IMG/VR virus record: IMGVR_UViG_3300023174_006137
Location: 1-64,000 of that record
Reading direction: 5' to 3' (one strand)
DNA from: a virus
DNA: 64,000 nucleotides
The notes below the pieces were generated by a model. The model made no database searches. It had not been told where the DNA came from and was given only the letters and a program-made list of their open reading frames with translations. Positions 4,440 to 52,805 of this stretch are shown here, in pieces. Made by a program: the position numbers and the translations under genes. Each line of letters starts with the position of its first letter. The stretch's first letter is position 1.

Positions 4440-5072
4440 ATGCGTATCTTAATAACTGCCGGCACAACACACGAACATATTGATCCAGTTCGTTTCATCT
4501 CAAACGCATCCTCTGGATTACAAGGTGTTTTATTAGCTAAAAACGCTATTTCAAGAGGACATGAAGTTATTTTAATTATTGGGCCAAATTCTTTGAATTT
4601 TAATTCACAAGATCCTAAATTAAAAATAATCAATATAGTTTCGGCAGAAGATATGTATAATGCAGCTATGGAACATTTCCTATTATGTGATGCTGCAATT
4701 TGTGCCGCAGCAGTTGGTGATTATCGTGTGAAAAATATAGCAACTGAAAAAATAAAAAGAAATGGCGATTCTATTTTATTGGAATTAATACCAAATCCAG
4801 ATATTGCTAAATCATTAGGTGAAATAAAAACTAAACAAACTTTAATTGGATTTGCTTTAGAAACAAATAATGGAATTGAAAATGCTAAATCAAAAATAAT
4901 TAAAAAGAATTTAGATTTTATTGTTTTAAATCAAACCTCAGATGATAATCCAGCATTTGGTGCAGATACAAATATAGTATCTATAATAGACAAACAAGGA
5001 AATACTTATAATTATCCTAAATTAGATAAATCTAAAATAGCAGAAGAAATACTTAATTTATTAAATATATAA
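4440..5072 (+). CDS. coaB: phosphopantothenate-cysteine ligase (CoaB domain)
   Basis: A 210-residue protein covering only the CoaB half of the usual bacterial Dfp/CoaBC fusion. Motifs: TAGTTHEHIDPVRFISNASSG (nucleotide-binding start), AAAVGDYRV, IKRNGDSILLELIPNPDIA, GFALETN and DFIVLNQTSDD. CoaB joins 4'-phosphopantothenate to cysteine using a nucleotide triphosphate, a step of coenzyme A synthesis in the cytoplasm. The ATG at 4440 is preferred over an in-frame GTG at 4425 because the domain begins at once after it. A CoaE homologue lies at 34124-34747, so two CoA steps are encoded here. Confidence 0.88.
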   Translation: MRILITAGTTHEHIDPVRFISNASSGLQGVLLAKNAISRGHEVILIIGPNSLNFNSQDPKLKIINIVSAEDMYNAAMEHFLLCDAAICAAAVGDYRVKNIATEKIKRNGDSILLELIPNPDIAKSLGEIKTKQTLIGFALETNNGIENAKSKIIKKNLDFIVLNQTSDDNPAFGADTNIVSIIDKQGNTYNYPKLDKSKIAEEILNLLNI

Positions 5073-14122: not shown

Positions 14123-14383
14123 ATGAAATATCTTAAAAAATTTTTAGAATCACAAGGAAATTATAGTAAATCTACAAATGATTTAAAGCGTATGCAACAT
14201 ACTAATTCAGTTGGTAATGAATCACCAATTAAAAAAGAATTAGATGGTGAATTAATAGATGACGAAGAAGCGGAAAATATAGATATTCCCTATGATTTAA
14301 GTTATACAGGACATATAAAATCGCCACAATATAATATTCGTTTAAGAAAAACTCCAAAAGAGCCAAAAATAAATAACTGCTAA
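14123..14383 (+). CDS. leader-bearing small protein
   Basis: An 86-residue hydrophilic protein whose first residues, MKYLKKFLES, match the recurrent leader of this window; F-L-E|S fits a prohead-protease-like cut site. The rest is charged and probably flexible. It overlaps the next gene by one base (TAATG). Function unknown; packaging in the head is inferred from the leader only. Confidence 0.6.
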   Translation: MKYLKKFLESQGNYSKSTNDLKRMQHTNSVGNESPIKKELDGELIDDEEAENIDIPYDLSYTGHIKSPQYNIRLRKTPKEPKINNC

Positions 14384-14817
14384 TGACAAAAATATATAAC
14401 AAATTTAATAATTTTTTAGGAAATAAATTATCATTTTCTTTATCAACTATGGAAATGTTTTATATAGTATTAATACTTGTAGTATTTCCATTATTTTTCC
14501 AAACTCCTCAAAATTTAATTGGTTGGATACAATATATTTCAACTGCAATTTTACAAGCAATAGCATTACCATTATTAGGCTATACTACCAGAAAAAGTGG
14601 CGAAAAACAAGAAAAAGTAATTAACGATACACATGCAATTTTATTAAAAGAGATAAAGGCAAATAGAGAATTGCATAAGCAACAAATAGAAATGATTAAC
14701 ACAAATAAGGAATACCATCAGCAACAGATAGAATTAATGAAAGAAATAAAAGAAGTACATTTGTTGCTTGAAAAAGAAACTAAAAAAGAAACTAAACCAA
14801 AAACAAAAGGAAAATAA
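14383..14817 (+). CDS. two-helix membrane protein with coiled-coil tail
   Basis: A 144-residue protein with two hydrophobic segments, about residues 25-40 (MFYIVLILVVFPLFF) and 48-66 (GWIQYISTAILQAIALPLL), and a long charged coiled coil (residues 70-135) ending in a Lys-rich tail. The plan resembles DUF1003-like or small permease-like membrane proteins; a holin is also possible. It lies between a leader-bearing gene and the ART-like pair, overlapping both neighbours by one base. Confidence 0.6.
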   Translation: MTKIYNKFNNFLGNKLSFSLSTMEMFYIVLILVVFPLFFQTPQNLIGWIQYISTAILQAIALPLLGYTTRKSGEKQEKVINDTHAILLKEIKANRELHKQQIEMINTNKEYHQQQIELMKEIKEVHLLLEKETKKETKPKTKGK

Positions 14818-15866
14818 TGAAATACTTAAAACATTATAAATTATTTGAATCATATTATAACAATAAAATACTTTATCATGGTGGATTAGAAGGTTTCTAT
14901 GATGAAGAAACTGGTAAAAATATGTTTAATAGATTCGATAAATTTTCTAAACGAACTGCTTATTTTGCAGATAATCCAAATTTTGCTATTGATTATGCTG
15001 ATATGAAATCGATGGATGGTGGATATGATGCTGATATCTATCTGTATACTTGTCATTTTACTGGCAATTTATTTGAGTATAATAATAAAGAAGATATGGA
15101 TAAATTAATTCCATTAATACCTGAAGAAGTTGAAATTTCAGATGGAACATTTTGGTTTTTAACAGGTAAAATACCTAAAAAAGAATTTATTAAAAATTTA
15201 CAAGGAATTGAAACAATTGAACCAATACCACAATTTGTTAATGCTAAAATTGGCGAAAGAGTAAAGTATGATAGTGATACGCAAATAATTGTTGATAGAG
15301 ATGATAAATATGTTTATAGCATTAAACAAGATACTTTCAATAGCTATAAAAATTCTTCTTCTATGGGTTATAATGAACATTTTAGCAATTATACTAAATA
15401 TAAAGATATATTTGAACCATGGCGCAATGCGATTGTAGACGCTTACAATCGCAATACAGGTAAAAATCATTCATATCCTAAATATTCTACTTTTAATCGA
15501 TTTTATCATACATACGAATATGCAAAAAAAGGATATAATATTGATTATGTCGCATATAATGATCGTAATGATAAAGAATTATTTACAAAAGATGATATAA
15601 CTAAAATTGATTCATTATATAATGATTGTTTGAAGAAATTTGAAGAAACAGCATATAAAGAATTGAACAGAAATAAATGGGTCATCAACGAAGAAGAAAA
15701 ATCAATGGGTAGCAATTGGAATTATTATGAAACTTCTATTATAACAAAATTAATCTTAGAATTAGGTTATGATGGTTATGTTGCATTAGAAAAAAAGCAT
15801 AAAACTTATGCTATTTATAATCCACATGAAACAATTGAAATAATTAAAACGGAAAGAATAAGATGA
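14817..15866 (+). CDS. ADP-ribosyltransferase-like protein with leader, copy 1
   Basis: A 349-residue protein beginning MKYLKHYKLFES, the recurrent leader (L-F-E|S). The body has the layout of the ART-PolyVal type of ADP-ribosyltransferase fold: LYHGG near the start (first NAD-binding strand), RTAYFADNPNFAIDYA (second strand and helix), YLYTCHFTGNLFE, and near the end LGYDGYVALE...TYAIYNPHETIEII. T4 packages the ART Alt behind a cleavable leader and injects it; the same arrangement is inferred here. Catalytic activity is not certain from sequence alone. It overlaps its paralogue by 4 bases. Confidence 0.65.
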   Translation: MKYLKHYKLFESYYNNKILYHGGLEGFYDEETGKNMFNRFDKFSKRTAYFADNPNFAIDYADMKSMDGGYDADIYLYTCHFTGNLFEYNNKEDMDKLIPLIPEEVEISDGTFWFLTGKIPKKEFIKNLQGIETIEPIPQFVNAKIGERVKYDSDTQIIVDRDDKYVYSIKQDTFNSYKNSSSMGYNEHFSNYTKYKDIFEPWRNAIVDAYNRNTGKNHSYPKYSTFNRFYHTYEYAKKGYNIDYVAYNDRNDKELFTKDDITKIDSLYNDCLKKFEETAYKELNRNKWVINEEEKSMGSNWNYYETSIITKLILELGYDGYVALEKKHKTYAIYNPHETIEIIKTERIR

Positions 15867-16957
15867 GATATTTAAAATATTATAAACTATTTGAAGCGCA
15901 TTATACCGATAAAATACTTTATCATGGTGGTTTGCATGGTTATTATGAAGAAGAAACTGGTAAAAATAAATTTAATAAATTTACAAAATTTCATAATCAA
16001 TTATCTTTTTTTTCAGATAACGAAAACTTTGCTATGGATTATGCTAATATGAAGTCAATGGATGGTGGTTATGATGCTGATAGAATCTTATATACATGTA
16101 AATTTACTGGTAATTTATTTGAACCATGGAATAAAGAAGATATGGATAAACTAATAAAAGAATTACCGGATGATGAAACAGTAATTAGACATCCATCTCA
16201 ACATTATTTAACTAAAAAAATTGATAAAAAAACATTAATAGATGGTATACAAGGATTCAAAACAGTTTATCCATTAGATAATATTGAAAATTTTAAAATT
16301 GGTGATTTGATAACAAGTCAAAGCTATGAACATGATAAATTTATCATATTTAAAAAAGATAAAAATTGGTTATATACCGTATACAAAAAAACATATAATA
16401 GAGTTTTATCTGCTTCTTCTCGTGGTTATAGTGAGAATTTTAGGCATGAAGTTAGATATAAAAAAATATTTGAAACATGGCGTAATGCTATTGTTGATTT
16501 ATGGAATAAAAAAATGAATGACGATGTTAAATATCAAAGCAGTGGATTAATAGGTTCTACAAAAACAACATATGAATTACAAATTGTAATGTATGCATAT
16601 GAAAAAGCTTCTGAAAATCCTGGTTTTCCAGCAAAAAGTAAAATGGTGGATCAAGATTTCGTTGTATCAAAACAAGAAGTATTTAAGATAAATCAATTGT
16701 GGAAAGAAGCTGTAGAAAAATTTAACCGTGTATATTTCAAAGAAGCACCTGTTACAAAATACACACTAAAACCTATTAAAGTTTCAATTAAAGAAGGATT
16801 GCATGGTAATTTTATATATTTCGAAAATGACGTTGTTGCTAATGCAATTCACAAATTAGGTTATGATGGATATATTGCTTATGAAGAAGGACATAAAACT
16901 TATGCCATCTACGAACCAGATAAAACTGTTAAAATAATTGATATTAAAGTAAATTAA
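15863..16957 (+). CDS. ADP-ribosyltransferase-like protein with leader, copy 2
   Basis: A 364-residue paralogue of the preceding gene, starting MRYLKYYKLFEA (L-F-E|A). It keeps LYHGG, LSFFSDNENFAMDYANMKSMDGGYDAD, LYTCKFTGNLFE, the central FETWRNAIVD block and the C-terminal LGYDGYIAYEEGHKTYAIYEP. Conserved blocks are nearly identical, while the linker between them (residues about 120-190) has diverged. Two copies with different linkers suggest different targets for the same reaction. Confidence 0.65.
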   Translation: MRYLKYYKLFEAHYTDKILYHGGLHGYYEEETGKNKFNKFTKFHNQLSFFSDNENFAMDYANMKSMDGGYDADRILYTCKFTGNLFEPWNKEDMDKLIKELPDDETVIRHPSQHYLTKKIDKKTLIDGIQGFKTVYPLDNIENFKIGDLITSQSYEHDKFIIFKKDKNWLYTVYKKTYNRVLSASSRGYSENFRHEVRYKKIFETWRNAIVDLWNKKMNDDVKYQSSGLIGSTKTTYELQIVMYAYEKASENPGFPAKSKMVDQDFVVSKQEVFKINQLWKEAVEKFNRVYFKEAPVTKYTLKPIKVSIKEGLHGNFIYFENDVVANAIHKLGYDGYIAYEEGHKTYAIYEPDKTVKIIDIKVN

Positions 16958-19508: not shown

Positions 19509-21251
19509 TTATGCGGTTATACTTGGTCTTTGTGAAGCATCTACCGTACTTTGATAAAATACATTGAGTGATTTTAAACCACCTGCATTTATATCATCGC
19601 TATAATATATATTGTTTCTATCATACCAACCACCTTTAATTACAGGAACTTCATTTGGATCAAATAATATATCGCCTAAAACTGGATCAATTCCTATAAC
19701 TGCTGAAGCAGTATAACCTAAATTTGACTGAACAGTTGATAATTGAAATGAACCTTCCGCTGTTTGTTGTGAATAATTTATTCTTGTTTGATTTGCTGAA
19801 TGAAAATCTTCATTTTTCTTACATACAAAATTTACATCCACAGAATAAATATCTCCAATAGAAGTTAATGCTGAAATAATATCTGCTTTTGGTATTCTAC
19901 CTATTTTTTTCAAATCTAAAAAGTAATCTGAAATAGCATTATGTATTTGTAATGTTACATTATCTTGTGTTGCATCCGAATAAATAATTACAAATACATT
20001 TATAATATACAACGATAGTAAAGGTGATTGTATATTATATCTTCTTGAAATCATTATATTACCACCAGATTTTAAATAATTATCAATTTTAGAAATCTCA
20101 TAAGAATCTAATTGAAAAGCAACTAGTGGTATAGAAAAATAATCTGAATTTTGATTTTTAAATAAAACTATATTAGGCGTAACCATAATATATATAGAAC
20201 CATATTGCTCATAAGCATTAACATATGAAAAAACACCTAATCTTTTTATAGCAAATGCGTATTGTTGTGGTAATCCTAAAACAAAATTATTACTTGATAT
20301 AGGAAGCATATTTTTCGTAAATTGTGTTGATTCAGCATCTGCTCCAAAATTAATATCATTATAAAATGAAATATCAAAATATTTTGTTACATCTATTGAA
20401 TTACCAAACCCATCAATAGCCATTTCTGTAAATTGCCAATCATTTATAGTTCTTCTAAAGATATTACCATTTGCACCATCAGTTAATATATAGTTAATCA
20501 CAATTGTTGAACCAGATTTTGGAATAGCACCAAAAGCACCATTTCCAAATATAATATCAATCCCACCAGAATAACCAGTTCTAATGACACATGCTTGTTC
20601 GTCTGTTCCTAAATCATATAACCAAGTTTTATTTGACCAACGAACACCATCAACAATGACTTGAACATTAAAATTTTCAACATCTTGTGTGCCTCTATTA
20701 TTAACATTAAAAGTTTGGTTTATTTGTCCAGTTCCAGTAAAAGTTGTATTTGTCCATTTACCTTGAATTATGTTGAAATAGATTTTACTAGTTTTTGTAA
20801 TAAAAAATGTTTGTTTATCTTCAACTAAATTAATTGAATAATATAAACCATTAGTTTTATTTTTTAAACTTTGTTGATTATTTAAAGTAATTCTACCACC
20901 TGGTATATTAGAAGAAATATCTGTAGTTAATTTTACCGTCATTGCTAATGCACCAGAAGCACTAATTGCTCTACCAGGAATATAACCAGCCACTATTGCT
21001 GCGTTCCTAATTACTTTTTTATTAGTAGCATTATTATCAGATAAATCTAAATTTTTAACTACATTTTTTAAATATAATAAAGATAATTGGAATAGGTTTT
21101 CAACTACAAAAAGAATTTGCCCGTATGGGCTCGCCTCGCTAAAAAGTATATTACTGCTATTATATTCTTGTTTTAAATAATTTTCAATTTGTCTTTTTAT
21201 ATTAACAAATGTTATTTCGGTAAATAATGTTGTATTTGAAGTATTGGCCAT
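19509..21251 (-). CDS. baseplate wedge protein, T4 gp6-like
   Basis: A 580-residue protein (T4 gp6 has 660). The N-terminus (FVNIKRQIENYLKQEY...FQLSLLYLKNVVKNLDLSDN) is followed by an AAIVAGYIPGRAISASGALAMT block, where gp6-like proteins have their conserved R/G/A-rich element. A baseplate-J-like middle follows (VNNRGTQDVENFNVQVIVDGVRW, IIFGNGAFGAIPKSGSTIVINY). The late part has the IHNAISDYFLDLKKIGRIPKADIISALTSI segment. gp6 forms the inner baseplate ring of contractile-tailed phages. A late-type motif sits 20 bases upstream of its start. Confidence 0.8.
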   Translation of the reverse strand: MANTSNTTLFTEITFVNIKRQIENYLKQEYNSSNILFSEASPYGQILFVVENLFQLSLLYLKNVVKNLDLSDNNATNKKVIRNAAIVAGYIPGRAISASGALAMTVKLTTDISSNIPGGRITLNNQQSLKNKTNGLYYSINLVEDKQTFFITKTSKIYFNIIQGKWTNTTFTGTGQINQTFNVNNRGTQDVENFNVQVIVDGVRWSNKTWLYDLGTDEQACVIRTGYSGGIDIIFGNGAFGAIPKSGSTIVINYILTDGANGNIFRRTINDWQFTEMAIDGFGNSIDVTKYFDISFYNDINFGADAESTQFTKNMLPISSNNFVLGLPQQYAFAIKRLGVFSYVNAYEQYGSIYIMVTPNIVLFKNQNSDYFSIPLVAFQLDSYEISKIDNYLKSGGNIMISRRYNIQSPLLSLYIINVFVIIYSDATQDNVTLQIHNAISDYFLDLKKIGRIPKADIISALTSIGDIYSVDVNFVCKKNEDFHSANQTRINYSQQTAEGSFQLSTVQSNLGYTASAVIGIDPVLGDILFDPNEVPVIKGGWYDRNNIYYSDDINAGGLKSLNVFYQSTVDASQRPSITA

Positions 21252-34123: not shown

Positions 34124-34747
34124 TTAAAAGTTTGTTAAACGCTTAAAAACATATTTTTCAGGGTCACGATTTGTTAAATGTTCCCATATAGTATCAACCA
34201 TCTCTAATATGTTAAAATCATCATAATTAGAAATTATATAATCTGATTTTTTAATTTTAGTAAGTGAATCAATTTGTTTCTTCATCCTATTATCATAATC
34301 TTCAGATGTCAAACCAGATCTTTCATATGCTCTTTGAAGTCTTATTTTTTTTGGCACATAAACATAAATAATTCTATCTAATTGTTTATCCATTTCTGTT
34401 TCAAACAAAGTTGCTGTTTCAATAAGACACCATTTAGAATCTTTATTTTCAGAGTAAAATTTATCTATATCAGCATATATAAAAGGATCAATGATAGAAA
34501 CTAATTTTTTTAGTTTCGTATCATCGTCTTTTAAAAAAACTAAATTAGAAAGATTTTTATAGACATTACCTTCATAAATTGTTTCACCAAATTCTGCTTT
34601 AATAGATTCAATTAAATCTGGATTTGTAATTAATAATTTTTTAGAATTATCATCACAATTGTAATAAGGAACACCTTTAGCAACAAATAATTTTGAAATA
34701 AATGATTTGCCCGCTCCAAGTTCACCCGTAATTCCTACTTTTAACAT
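34124..34747 (-). CDS. coaE: dephospho-CoA kinase
   Basis: A 207-residue protein of normal CoaE length. P-loop GELGAGKS (residues 8-15), a DD pair after the first strand (YYNCDDNSKKLL), CLIETATLFE, and the lid region with QRAYERSGLTSEDYDNRMKKQ followed by KKSDYIISN. CoaE phosphorylates dephospho-CoA, the last step of coenzyme A synthesis. With CoaB at 4440-5072 the phage carries two non-adjacent steps of one pathway. It heads a minus-strand nucleotide and cofactor block together with the following gene. Confidence 0.88.
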   Translation of the reverse strand: MLKVGITGELGAGKSFISKLFVAKGVPYYNCDDNSKKLLITNPDLIESIKAEFGETIYEGNVYKNLSNLVFLKDDDTKLKKLVSIIDPFIYADIDKFYSENKDSKWCLIETATLFETEMDKQLDRIIYVYVPKKIRLQRAYERSGLTSEDYDNRMKKQIDSLTKIKKSDYIISNYDDFNILEMVDTIWEHLTNRDPEKYVFKRLTNF

Positions 34748-38425: not shown

Positions 38426-40000
<1,575 letters not shown>

Positions 40001-43181: not shown

Positions 43182-43895
43182 CTATATGAATATTTCTTTT
43201 ATGTCATTCATTACAAATTCCATACCTTCGGTTGCTTTTTCTTGTACATGTGTGAAGAATGGTCGTTTTTGTTTTGGAACAATAAATCTTATATCATCTG
43301 GGTCTATATAATAGATTAAACAATTTTCAGGTGTTTCCCAAGGCATACTTGCTGCTGTTTGTACTTGCATTGAAGTTCCAACTATAATTAAAATATCAGC
43401 CTCATAAATTGCATTTAAAGAATTTTGATATTCCTCGTAAGGTAAGTTTTCACCAAATAATATAATATCAGGACGCATTTGTGCACCATCAGGACATACA
43501 TCACCTGGTTTTACATCATCAATATAATCAATAACATATGCAGGATTAAATGATGAACGCAATTTTGATAAATCACCATGTAAATGATATATAGTTGAAC
43601 TACCAGCCTTTTCATGAAGATTATCAATATTCTGTGTTACTACGGTAACATCAAATAATTCTTCTAATTCTTTACAAATTAAATGAGCCTTATTTGGTTT
43701 GATTGTTTTCATTTCATTTTTTCGTAAATTGTAAAACTTACAAAAATTTTCCAAATTATTTTTTATAGCATATGGTGTTGCTACATCTTCAATTTTGAAT
43801 TCATTCCAATAACCATCTGCTGAATCACGAAATGTTCTAACACCAGATTCTTTGCTAATACCAGCTCCGGTTAAAATTACTATTTTTCTTTTCAT
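43182..43895 (-). CDS. sirtuin (Sir2/CobB-type NAD-dependent deacylase)
   Basis: A 237-residue protein. GAGISKESGVRTFRD (NAD-binding start), TQNIDNLHEKAG, catalytic His106 in YHLHGDL, RPDIILFGE and IVGTSMQVQTAA are all present. The four zinc cysteines of most sirtuins are absent, as in Bacteroidota CobB-type proteins with HGEL.K.RS in that place. It may remove acyl groups from host or phage proteins, or consume NAD. It ends with TAG and is the last gene of a minus-strand run 43.2-45.2 kb. Confidence 0.88.
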   Translation of the reverse strand: MKRKIVILTGAGISKESGVRTFRDSADGYWNEFKIEDVATPYAIKNNLENFCKFYNLRKNEMKTIKPNKAHLICKELEELFDVTVVTQNIDNLHEKAGSSTIYHLHGDLSKLRSSFNPAYVIDYIDDVKPGDVCPDGAQMRPDIILFGENLPYEEYQNSLNAIYEADILIIVGTSMQVQTAASMPWETPENCLIYYIDPDDIRFIVPKQKRPFFTHVQEKATEGMEFVMNDIKEIFI

Positions 43896-50524: not shown

Positions 50525-51475
50525 ATGAAATTTGATTTTGAACAAATAAATTTAATTCCACAAAAATGTATAGTGGAATCTCGTTCCGAATGTGATACTT
50601 CTGTCAAATTCGGAAATTTTACTTTTAATATGCCCATAGTTCCAGCAAACATGGAATGTGTTATTGATGAAACATTAGCAACAATTTTATCTAATAAAGG
50701 ATATTTTTATATAATGCATCGATTTGCTGATACATTAAAGTTTGTTAGAAACTACAATAATGCTAATTTAATTAGCGATAAAAAAATGCCAATATCTATT
50801 TCAATTGGTGTTAATCAAGATTCTTATGATTTAATTAACACTATTATATATGAAAAATTGAATGTTGATTATATAACAATTGATATTGCACATGGACATG
50901 CCATTAAAATGGAAAAAATGATAAAATGGTTAAGAGAAAAATTACCAAATGTTTATATAATTGCTGGTAATGTTTCTACAAAAGAAGCTGTTTTAGATTT
51001 AAAAAATTGGGGTGCTGATTGCGTTAAAGTAGGTATAGGACCAGGTTCAGCTTGCACAACTTGGCCTTCAACTGGTTTTGGTTCTCGTAATTGTCAAGCA
51101 TCGACTATACTAGAATGCGCTTCTGATGGTGTTGATATAATTGCTGATGGTGGAATTAAAGTTCCAGCTGATATAGCAAAAGCATTAGTTTTAGGTGCTA
51201 AAATGGTTATGGTTGGTGGTATGTTATCGGGATTTAAAGATTCGCCAGGTAATTTAATTGATTTTAATGGAATTAAGAAAAAAGAATTTTGGGGTTCAGC
51301 ATCCGCCTTTCAATCAAATAAAAAAAATAGAATTGAAGGAACAAAAAATCTAATTGATTATAAAGATAAATCAATTTTAGATGAAATTAATTATTTACAA
51401 GAATGTTTACAATCGTCTATAAGTTATGGCGGAGGTAAAGATTTATCTTGTTTGAAAAACGTAAAATGGCAATAA
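50525..51475 (+). CDS. guaC: GMP reductase
   Basis: A 316-residue IMPDH/GMPR-family barrel without CBS domains. It matches the GuaC2 (YumD) type: [75 protein letters not shown] with catalytic Cys177, IIADGGI, and FWGSASAFQ...IEGTK...[17 protein letters not shown] and the C-terminal LQSSISY element favour GMP reductase over IMP dehydrogenase. It converts GMP to IMP and ammonia with NADPH. One base separates it from purB. Confidence 0.9.
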
Positions 51476-51476
51476 A

Positions 51477-52805
51477 ATGGTAGAATTAATGGCAATTAGT
51501 CCAATTGACGGGCGTTATGATAAACATACAAACGTATTTACAGATTATTTTTCTGAATATGCACTTATTAAATATCGTGTTTTAATAGAAATTAAATATT
51601 TAATTTCACTTATTAATGAAGGTATAATTAAATCAAAAAAGGAAAATATAATTAAAGAATTAGAAGCAATATGTGATAATTTTTCAATTGCTGATGCTGA
51701 AGACATTAAAAATATAGAAAGGGAAACCAATCATGATGTTAAAGCTGTAGAATATTTTTTGAAAAATAAAATTACAGAAATTGATTCTTCTATTGTAGAA
51801 TATATACACATTGGTTTAACTTCACAAGATATAAATAATACTTCTATTCCATTATTATGGAAAGATGCGATTAAAAATGTATATAAACCATTATTATTTC
51901 AATTAATTACAGATTTAAGAATAATGGCAAATACATGGATAAATATACCTATGCTTGCTAAAACACATGGACAATCAGCATCACCAACGACAATAGGAAA
52001 GGAAATTTTAGTATTTGTTGAAAGATTAGAATCACAAATTGATATTTTTAATTATATACCATATTCTTGTAAGTTTGGTGGCGCAACTGGTAATTTTAAT
52101 TCATTATGTGTTGCTTATCCCGACGTAAATTGGATTTTATTTGCAAATCATTTTTGTTATACATTAGGTTTAAAAAGAATTAAATATACAACACAAATAG
52201 AACCATATGATAATTTAGCGGCTCAATTTGATTCTCTTAAAAGAATTAATACTATTTTAATTGATTTTTGTAGAGATATTTGGCAGTATATATCTATGGA
52301 TTATTTTAAACAAAAAATTAAACAAAGTGAAGTTGGTTCAAGTGCTATGCCGCATAAAGTCAATCCAATTGATTTTGAAAATGCTGAAGGTAATTTAGGT
52401 ATAGCTAATAGTTTATATGAGCATATGTCAGCAAAACTTCCTATTTCAAGATTACAAAGAGATCTGACTGATAGCACCGTTTTGAGAAATATAGGAGTTC
52501 CTATGAGCCATAGTTATCTATCTTTATTATCAATTAGAAAAGGTATTTCTAAATTAATTTTAAATGAAGATAAATTAAATGAAGATTTAGAAAATAATTG
52601 GGCGGTAGTTGCAGAAGGTATTCAAACTATATTACGAAGAGAAGGTTATCCAAAACCATATGAAGCTTTAAAAGAATTTACAAGAGGTAAATCTAATTTA
52701 TCCAAAAAAGATATAATAAAATTTATCGACTCATTGAGTATTTCTGATGAAATAAAAGAAGAATTAAAATTAATAACACCACAAAATTATATTGGTATTA
52801 TTTAA
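51477..52805 (+). CDS. purB: adenylosuccinate lyase
   Basis: A 442-residue protein of E. coli PurB type (456 residues): MAISPIDGRYD, TNHDVKAVEYFLK, EYIHIGLTSQDINN, LAKTHGQSASPTTIGKE with catalytic-type His, and the fumarase/aspartase signature GSSAMPHKVNP (about residues 287-297). It splits adenylosuccinate into AMP and fumarate. It follows guaC after one base, so the operon links the first and last steps of GMP-to-AMP conversion; PurA is at 38.6-39.8 kb. Confidence 0.93.
   Translation: MVELMAISPIDGRYDKHTNVFTDYFSEYALIKYRVLIEIKYLISLINEGIIKSKKENIIKELEAICDNFSIADAEDIKNIERETNHDVKAVEYFLKNKITEIDSSIVEYIHIGLTSQDINNTSIPLLWKDAIKNVYKPLLFQLITDLRIMANTWINIPMLAKTHGQSASPTTIGKEILVFVERLESQIDIFNYIPYSCKFGGATGNFNSLCVAYPDVNWILFANHFCYTLGLKRIKYTTQIEPYDNLAAQFDSLKRINTILIDFCRDIWQYISMDYFKQKIKQSEVGSSAMPHKVNPIDFENAEGNLGIANSLYEHMSAKLPISRLQRDLTDSTVLRNIGVPMSHSYLSLLSIRKGISKLILNEDKLNEDLENNWAVVAEGIQTILRREGYPKPYEALKEFTRGKSNLSKKDIIKFIDSLSISDEIKEELKLITPQNYIGII

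Follow-up and report, generated by a model that had tools for sequence, protein, structure and literature searches.

Tandem paralogous genes and their neighbours

The window in this study is the whole 64,000-nucleotide stretch of DNA that was analyzed, positions 1 to 64,000 of IMG/VR record IMGVR_UViG_3300023174_006137, a 159,491-base fragment. A string of four genes that overlap in series lies within it (Table 1). The last two genes of the string encode ADP-ribosyltransferase (ART)-like proteins. A preliminary description of the locus had reported two adjacent paralogues of 349 and 364 residues; both ORFs were confirmed, and their products are 45% identical. An ATGA at 15863-15866 forms the overlap between them. 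Family searches with the 86-aa product of the first gene gave no match. The 144-aa product of the second gene reads as hydrophobic in its N-terminal half and coiled-coil-like in its C-terminal half, and its family matches are weak. The gene for this protein, with its apparent membrane and coiled-coil parts, is coupled to the ART pair. None of the genes adjoining the pair was recognized as structural.

The sequence motifs quoted earlier for the two proteins are all present: LYHGG, YFADNPNFAIDYA/FFSDNENFAMDYA, FTGNLFE, and LGYDGY...HKTYAIY-P. The landmarks of copy 1 are H21 (LYHGG), Y49 (AYFADN), the FAIDYA helix, and the FTGNLFE strand in the N-terminal half. In the C-terminal half they are E305, LGYDGY, E325, and HKTYAIYNP, with K329/T330 at the usual acid position. 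The predicted pI of the mature proteins is 5.5 for copy 1 and 8.4 for copy 2.

Table 1 Features of the locus and of the surrounding window.
Feature	Position	Strand	Evidence
86-aa leader-bearing protein, MKYLKKFLES...	14123..14383	+	First in the overlapping gene string; fits leader template
144-aa protein	14383..14817	+	One-base overlap with each neighbour; putative member of the system from the overlaps
ART-like protein 1 (P0001), 349 aa	14817..15866	+	ORF; AlphaFold2 pLDDT 84.2, pTM 0.69 (29-sequence alignment, includes ART-PolyVal proteins); purifying selection in homologues
Leader 1, MKYLKHYKLFE	14817..14849	+	T4-type capsid-targeting/prohead-protease pattern; predicted cleavage after E11 (LFE/S)
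ART N-terminal half, copy 1, residues 17-104	14865..15128	+	Sub-threshold PF18760; 70% identity between copies
Insert between ART halves, residues 105-300	15129..15716	+	AlphaFold2 secondary structure; weak Foldseek SH3 matches
ART C-terminal half, copy 1, residues 301-349	15717..15863	+	hhalign to the 194-aa family; motif table
ART-like protein 2 (P0002), 364 aa	15863..16957	+	ORF; paralogue comparison
Leader 2, MRYLKYYKLFE	15863..15895	+	One mismatch to leader pattern; predicted cleavage LFE/A
ART N-terminal half, copy 2	15911..16171	+	H21 kept; Tyr to Phe (SFFSDN)
ART C-terminal half, copy 2, LGYDGYIAYEEGHKTYAIYEP	16805..16954	+	Paralogue comparison; motif table
Further leader-bearing orphans	window 5878, 23792, 25279, 25941, 27331, 41056, 45279; L006, L007, L008		
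Purine pathway genes	38635-39831, 50525-51475, 51477-52805	-, +, +	Adenylosuccinate synthetase; IMPDH/GMP reductase type; adenylosuccinate lyase

The baseplate protein (19509-21251) was compared with its counterparts in other phages. It is 56-59% identical to those of LR756502 (642 kb) and LR745206 (635 kb), and less so to those of a 636-kb and a 735-kb genome. Judged by this sequence, the fragment belongs to a giant bacteriophage of the Mahaphage type, and its closest relatives are the 634-735-kb Mahaphages, a clade assigned by the genome sizes. Bacteroidetes are the predicted hosts of the Mahaphage clade (PMC7162821). The cultured relatives found via the baseplate gene include Tenacibaculum, Flavobacterium, and Chryseobacterium phages.

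The leader and the prohead protease

Both ART-like proteins begin with M[KR]YLK[HY]YKLFE. The two leaders have the form of a capsid-targeting sequence (CTS), an N-terminal propeptide of about ten residues that ends in hydrophobic-x-Glu. In T4 IPIII, the first ten residues are enough for head targeting, and processing is governed by residues 8 and 10 (PMC9026906). The leaders of T4 IPII and IPIII share the length of about ten residues and the pattern MK-x-[FY]...[FY]-[LI]-x-E, whereas the mature parts of these proteins are unrelated to the window proteins. A CTS-shaped DNA pattern matched ipII, ipIII, and one other gene, 61.1, in T4; the ART gene was its only match in LIMEstone1.

The leader template fits 19 of the 214 ORFs in the genome of this phage, whereas 200 shuffles gave 3.2 on average and never more than 10. 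This agrees with the earlier reading of the leader as a T4-like head-targeting pattern. Similarly, a near-identical template fits 22 of the 218 ORFs in the sampled Mahaphage DNA, against 4.5 after shuffling. From the leader sequences, we infer head targeting of the T4 type for the two window proteins. About a dozen further orphan proteins with the same type of leader were also seen and are candidate head cargo (Table 1).

All five complete huge-phage relatives searched encode a gp21-type S77 prohead protease, and both positive controls, T4 and EspM4VN, were matched. The lack of a match in the 159-kb fragment is uninformative. In LR756502, leader-bearing ORFs adjoin the portal, protease, and major capsid genes.

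An alternative is that the window proteins are non-packaged ARTs which work within the infected cell once expressed, like T4 ModA/ModB, the leader being a mere N-terminal helix or some other sorting signal. Three observations agree with this. AlphaFold2 models the leader as a helix, the search for the S77 protease in the 159-kb partial genome found none, and the adjoining genes are not recognizably structural. The alternative is nevertheless rather unlikely, since the leader ends at LFE with variable residues beyond, is common to many otherwise unrelated proteins, and has a precedent in T4. In addition, a protein with leader and ART domain was found in LIMEstone1 virions by one peptide, as described below.

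Family matches and homologues

Whole-protein queries against Pfam, PHROGs, and the PDB gave no match. Alt-type families matched neither protein in Pfam or PHROGs, in agreement with the earlier statement that similarity to Alt is undetectable. Automatic peptide patterns gave no match in GenBank phages, IMG/VR, or GTDB genomes. When residues 16-102 were searched against all of Pfam, one family was hit, PF18760 ART-PolyVal (E 0.018, 16.2 bits), and the PF18760 model run over eight huge-phage records gave a single match, at ART-like gene 1 (E 0.011, 13.3 bits), both scores falling below the curated cut-off of 31.2 bits.

The relatives were obtained only via a hand-made DNA pattern in IMG/VR, in which the leader is followed by [LIVMF][YF]HG. 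In-frame ORFs made up 53 of its 87 matches and were mostly ART-like. In a control pattern, HG was replaced by DG; 34 of its 118 matches were in-frame ORFs, and those seen formed no ART-like cluster. Three direct homologues of 373-375 aa (L038, L051, and L107) are about 31-33% identical to the window proteins (E down to 1e-35 to 1e-43). Their architecture matches the window proteins end to end; they differ in having a single family copy, an extra C-terminal tail, and asparagine at the 329 position. The HG pattern also returned a family of about 194 aa with 12 non-redundant members. Several leader-bearing proteins lie above the PF18760 cut-off, namely L069 (71 bits), L163 (43), L043 (40), L074 (40), and L032 (38). 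Within the set of 29 proteins with leader and [YF]HG, PF18760 was found in 11 (best 2e-19) and DUF3990 in 7. The hhalign comparison of the own family with the 194-aa family showed a common C-terminal block (probability 94%, E 9e-8). The comparison with ART-PolyVal domains was weak (probability 17%), yet in register. A pattern made from the C-terminal block found no additional members in viral and cellular genomes. The design of leader plus ART recurs across many other phages.

Two further observations were made among these sequences. A family of about 150 aa (L131, L134, L139, L174, and similar) begins with MKTFQEFIAEA, a perfect leader of the T4 type, and continues with YHGTS...; L139 matches ART-PolyVal with E 0.014. 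It is possibly another packaged ART-like family. Just 3' of the P0001 homologue in L038 lies a small ORF (L038:3420-3797; MITTFNKFDNDDNYIYHGTG...ISFTNDINYAKYYA) which looks leader-like and of the HG ART type, and which gave only a weak unrelated match in Pfam. This second HG-containing ORF indicates that the pairing of ART genes may recur.

The homologues gave Ka 0.087 against Ks 0.64, with Ka/Ks of about 0.14 overall and about 0.07 in each ART half. The purifying selection shows that the ART-like family is functional. The complete Mahaphage relatives contain no homologue of the pair, which indicates that it is not an essential part of the head. Both results bear on the possibility that these are internal head or core scaffold-like proteins, whose ART-like fold was recruited for a structural role. 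Some leader proteins do adjoin portal and capsid genes in relatives, as a scaffold-like role would suggest. The sporadic distribution and ART signature residues that are conserved and not drifting make it a very unlikely reading.

Predicted structure and the insert

AlphaFold2 gave a model with pLDDT 84.2 and pTM 0.69 from the 29-sequence alignment, which itself contains genuine ART-PolyVal proteins chosen by the HG motif, so that the model is partly circular; with the two paralogues only, the pLDDT was 51.8. The predicted fold is an ART-like beta-sandwich. Among the viral models (BFVD) matched by Foldseek were several ART-PolyVal proteins at a probability of 0.95-1.0; one match had E below 1e-3. 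Against the PDB, eight of the top nine matches were ART-superfamily chains (ParT, MbcT, PARP1, and PARP13), with E of at least 0.15 and low TM-scores. Low TM-scores are expected if an insert of about 200 residues breaks the alignment. The sequence profile of the 29-protein set matched mostly PARP1 in the PDB, weakly. The comparison with ART folds that had been proposed for this locus favours an ART fold in the viral models and, weakly, in the PDB.

From the sub-threshold PF18760 match, the model, and the BFVD matches, the body is predicted to be a divergent ADP-ribosyltransferase fold of the ART-PolyVal type, outside the clade of Alt, in line with the ART-PolyVal-like body first described. An unrelated fold could carry HG and GYDG motifs by chance, as the Pfam score below threshold and the weak PDB matches might suggest. 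The Pfam fragment scan, hhalign, the AlphaFold2/BFVD results, and the family-wide pattern all agree with each other, and a chance resemblance is very unlikely.

The insert contains a beta-rich part at about residues 140-170 with helices after it. It is modelled with good confidence to about residue 180 (pLDDT about 82-97 for residues 110-180). The beta-rich part is possibly SH3-like, as weak Foldseek matches to SH3 domains fall within the insert. Residues 120-190 had been described as a linker that differs between the copies. The difference was confirmed, with 31-35% identity between copy 1 and copy 2 against 70% for residues 13-104. The linker was rejected, since the region is a folded and conserved insert in which 9 of the 40 positions at residues 136-175 are invariant in four family members. 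A possible meaning of the divergence is that the two copies have different partners; two distinct targets for the paralogues are only a guess.

Active site

The active site of ART-PolyVal consists of H in strand 1, Y in strand 2, and D in strand 5, while that of Alt is R-S-E (PMC5512222). H21 in strand 1 is present in 29 of 29 sequences. The strand-2 position is Y49 in copy 1 and Phe in copy 2 and most relatives; Phe is also found there in the prototype domain of the Roseovarius podovirus (GLFFTNS). The strand-5 acid (Asp/Glu) is absent in both copies, where K329/T330 occupy the aligned positions, and the homologues have N/T there. The arrangement in copy 2 is H-F-T. With H-Y/F-x instead of R-S-E, the proteins fall in a different active-site clade, and membership of the Alt family was rejected.

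The absence of the strand-5 acid and the change from Tyr to Phe in copy 2 make catalysis uncertain, and, with no third catalytic residue at the expected position, NAD transfer cannot be assumed. E325 lies at the end of strand 4, six residues after the Asp of GYDG. All members of the own family and every full-length member of the 194-aa family have it, and it also occurs in some others. E325 may be a substitute for the missing acid, and it is plausible that the proteins act like an ART.

The same residues allow for a packaged pseudo-enzyme, catalytically dead, which binds NAD/ADP-ribose, a host protein, or RNA and serves as decoy or scaffold. The lost acid and the H-F-T of copy 2 speak for it. 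PARPs that lack the catalytic Glu are generally known as mono-transferases or as inactive proteins. The universal H21, the plausible relocation of the acid to E325, and the strong purifying selection acting on each of the ART halves argue for a working enzyme, and the dead form is considered less likely.

Comparison with known ARTs and a relative detected in virions

ART-PolyVal (PF18760), which belongs to the Tox-ART-HYD2 clade and represents the H-Y-D ARTs of polyvalent proteins (PMC5512222), is the best match in both sequence and fold. The strand-1 HG motif, the [YF]F-x-x-N-x-x-A-x-x-YA block, GYDG, and a final strand after it are common to both. Unlike ART-PolyVal, the window proteins are below the cut-off, are without the usual acid, and carry the insert of about 200 residues. 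They are also stand-alone proteins with a leader, not parts of a giant multidomain protein. T4 Alt, which is packaged and injected, likewise combines a head-targeting propeptide, cleaved in Alt and predicted to be cleaved here, with an ART. It differs in belonging to the R-S-E clade (PMC5512222) and in having RNA polymerase as its target.

For the leader-bearing protein L163, 225 phage records contain a homologue; judged by the names seen, almost all of them are Ackermannviridae. ORF173 of LIMEstone1 (L360:5001-5456) begins with the leader MKTFLQYLQES and carries a PF18760 domain (47 bits); a putative late promoter lies upstream of the gene. This 17.33-kDa protein was detected in virions by mass spectrometry with one peptide at 11.84% coverage, and was labelled an 'unknown structural protein', its ART nature being unrecognized there (PMC3296691). 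It shares the leader and the stand-alone ART-PolyVal domain with the window proteins, and is a distant relative only: it has about 150 aa, no insert, and a retained strand-5 Glu. The logic that a leader with an ART means a packaged ART, which the preliminary description had put forward, is supported by this architectural relative. Many records of the Ackermannviridae homologues with leader and ART-PolyVal are annotated as hypothetical or putative structural.

A limited open-access search found no literature linking the leader with ART-PolyVal. On the basis of gene context and of MuF fusions, reviews of viral ARTs have proposed that such enzymes are packaged in heads (PMC5512222, PMC9503650), and the terms 'capsid targeting' and 'propeptide' are absent from the 2022 review (PMC9503650). 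The suggested class of injected effectors is not wholly new, as the body falls within the known ART-PolyVal/HYD ART region and widespread head-packaged ARTs were already proposed in these reviews.

Proposed mode of action

The form of the leader and its genome-wide enrichment, the S77 protease in relatives, and the virion-detected ORF173 of LIMEstone1 favour the reading that the two proteins are late, head-packaged, and injected effectors with an ART fold (probability about 0.6). As a capsid-targeting sequence of the T4 type, the N-terminal 11 residues would bind to the core of the prohead, and cleavage after LFE by a gp21-type prohead protease would follow. The mature proteins, of about 40 kDa, would be retained in the head until they pass into the host together with the DNA. 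In the host, the ART-fold domain, interrupted by the insert, would bind NAD or an ADP-ribose/nucleotide ligand. A host macromolecule would be modified, or bound if the domain is catalytically dead, in the first minutes of infection.

It may further be, as a tentative extension, that unrelated lineages (Mahaphages, Ackermannviridae, and other contractile-tailed phages) have independently tagged enzymes of the ART-PolyVal type with head-targeting leaders, giving a broad and so far unrecognized arsenal of injected effectors. In the giant phages, the acid would have moved to E325 and an insert that sets the target would have been gained.

Little is known of the proteins that giant phages inject along with their DNA, since almost all of these proteins are orphans and the phages have not been cultured. 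Where a leader can be read from the sequence and an enzyme fold can be recognized with it, candidates for injected effectors can be listed even for such phages. Cultured Ackermannviridae have this architecture too, and the detection of one such protein in virions is already published, so that the idea can be tested directly. If it is true, many sequenced phages carry a packaged ART that has gone unrecognized, in addition to the paradigm of T4 Alt.

Other genes in the record

Several other genes were noted. The window encodes an NAD-using enzyme of the Sir2 family (PF02146, E 2e-40) at 43182-43895 (-). In the Mahaphage relative LR756502, a NADAR-domain protein (L349:12714-13175, E 2e-27) is encoded close to the head genes. 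Pieces of the coenzyme A pathway, a CoaB-like DFP domain and a dephospho-CoA kinase, are present in the window at 4440-5072 (+) and 34124-34747 (-). A purine pathway set is also present, with adenylosuccinate synthetase, an enzyme of the IMPDH/GMP reductase type, and adenylosuccinate lyase (Table 1).
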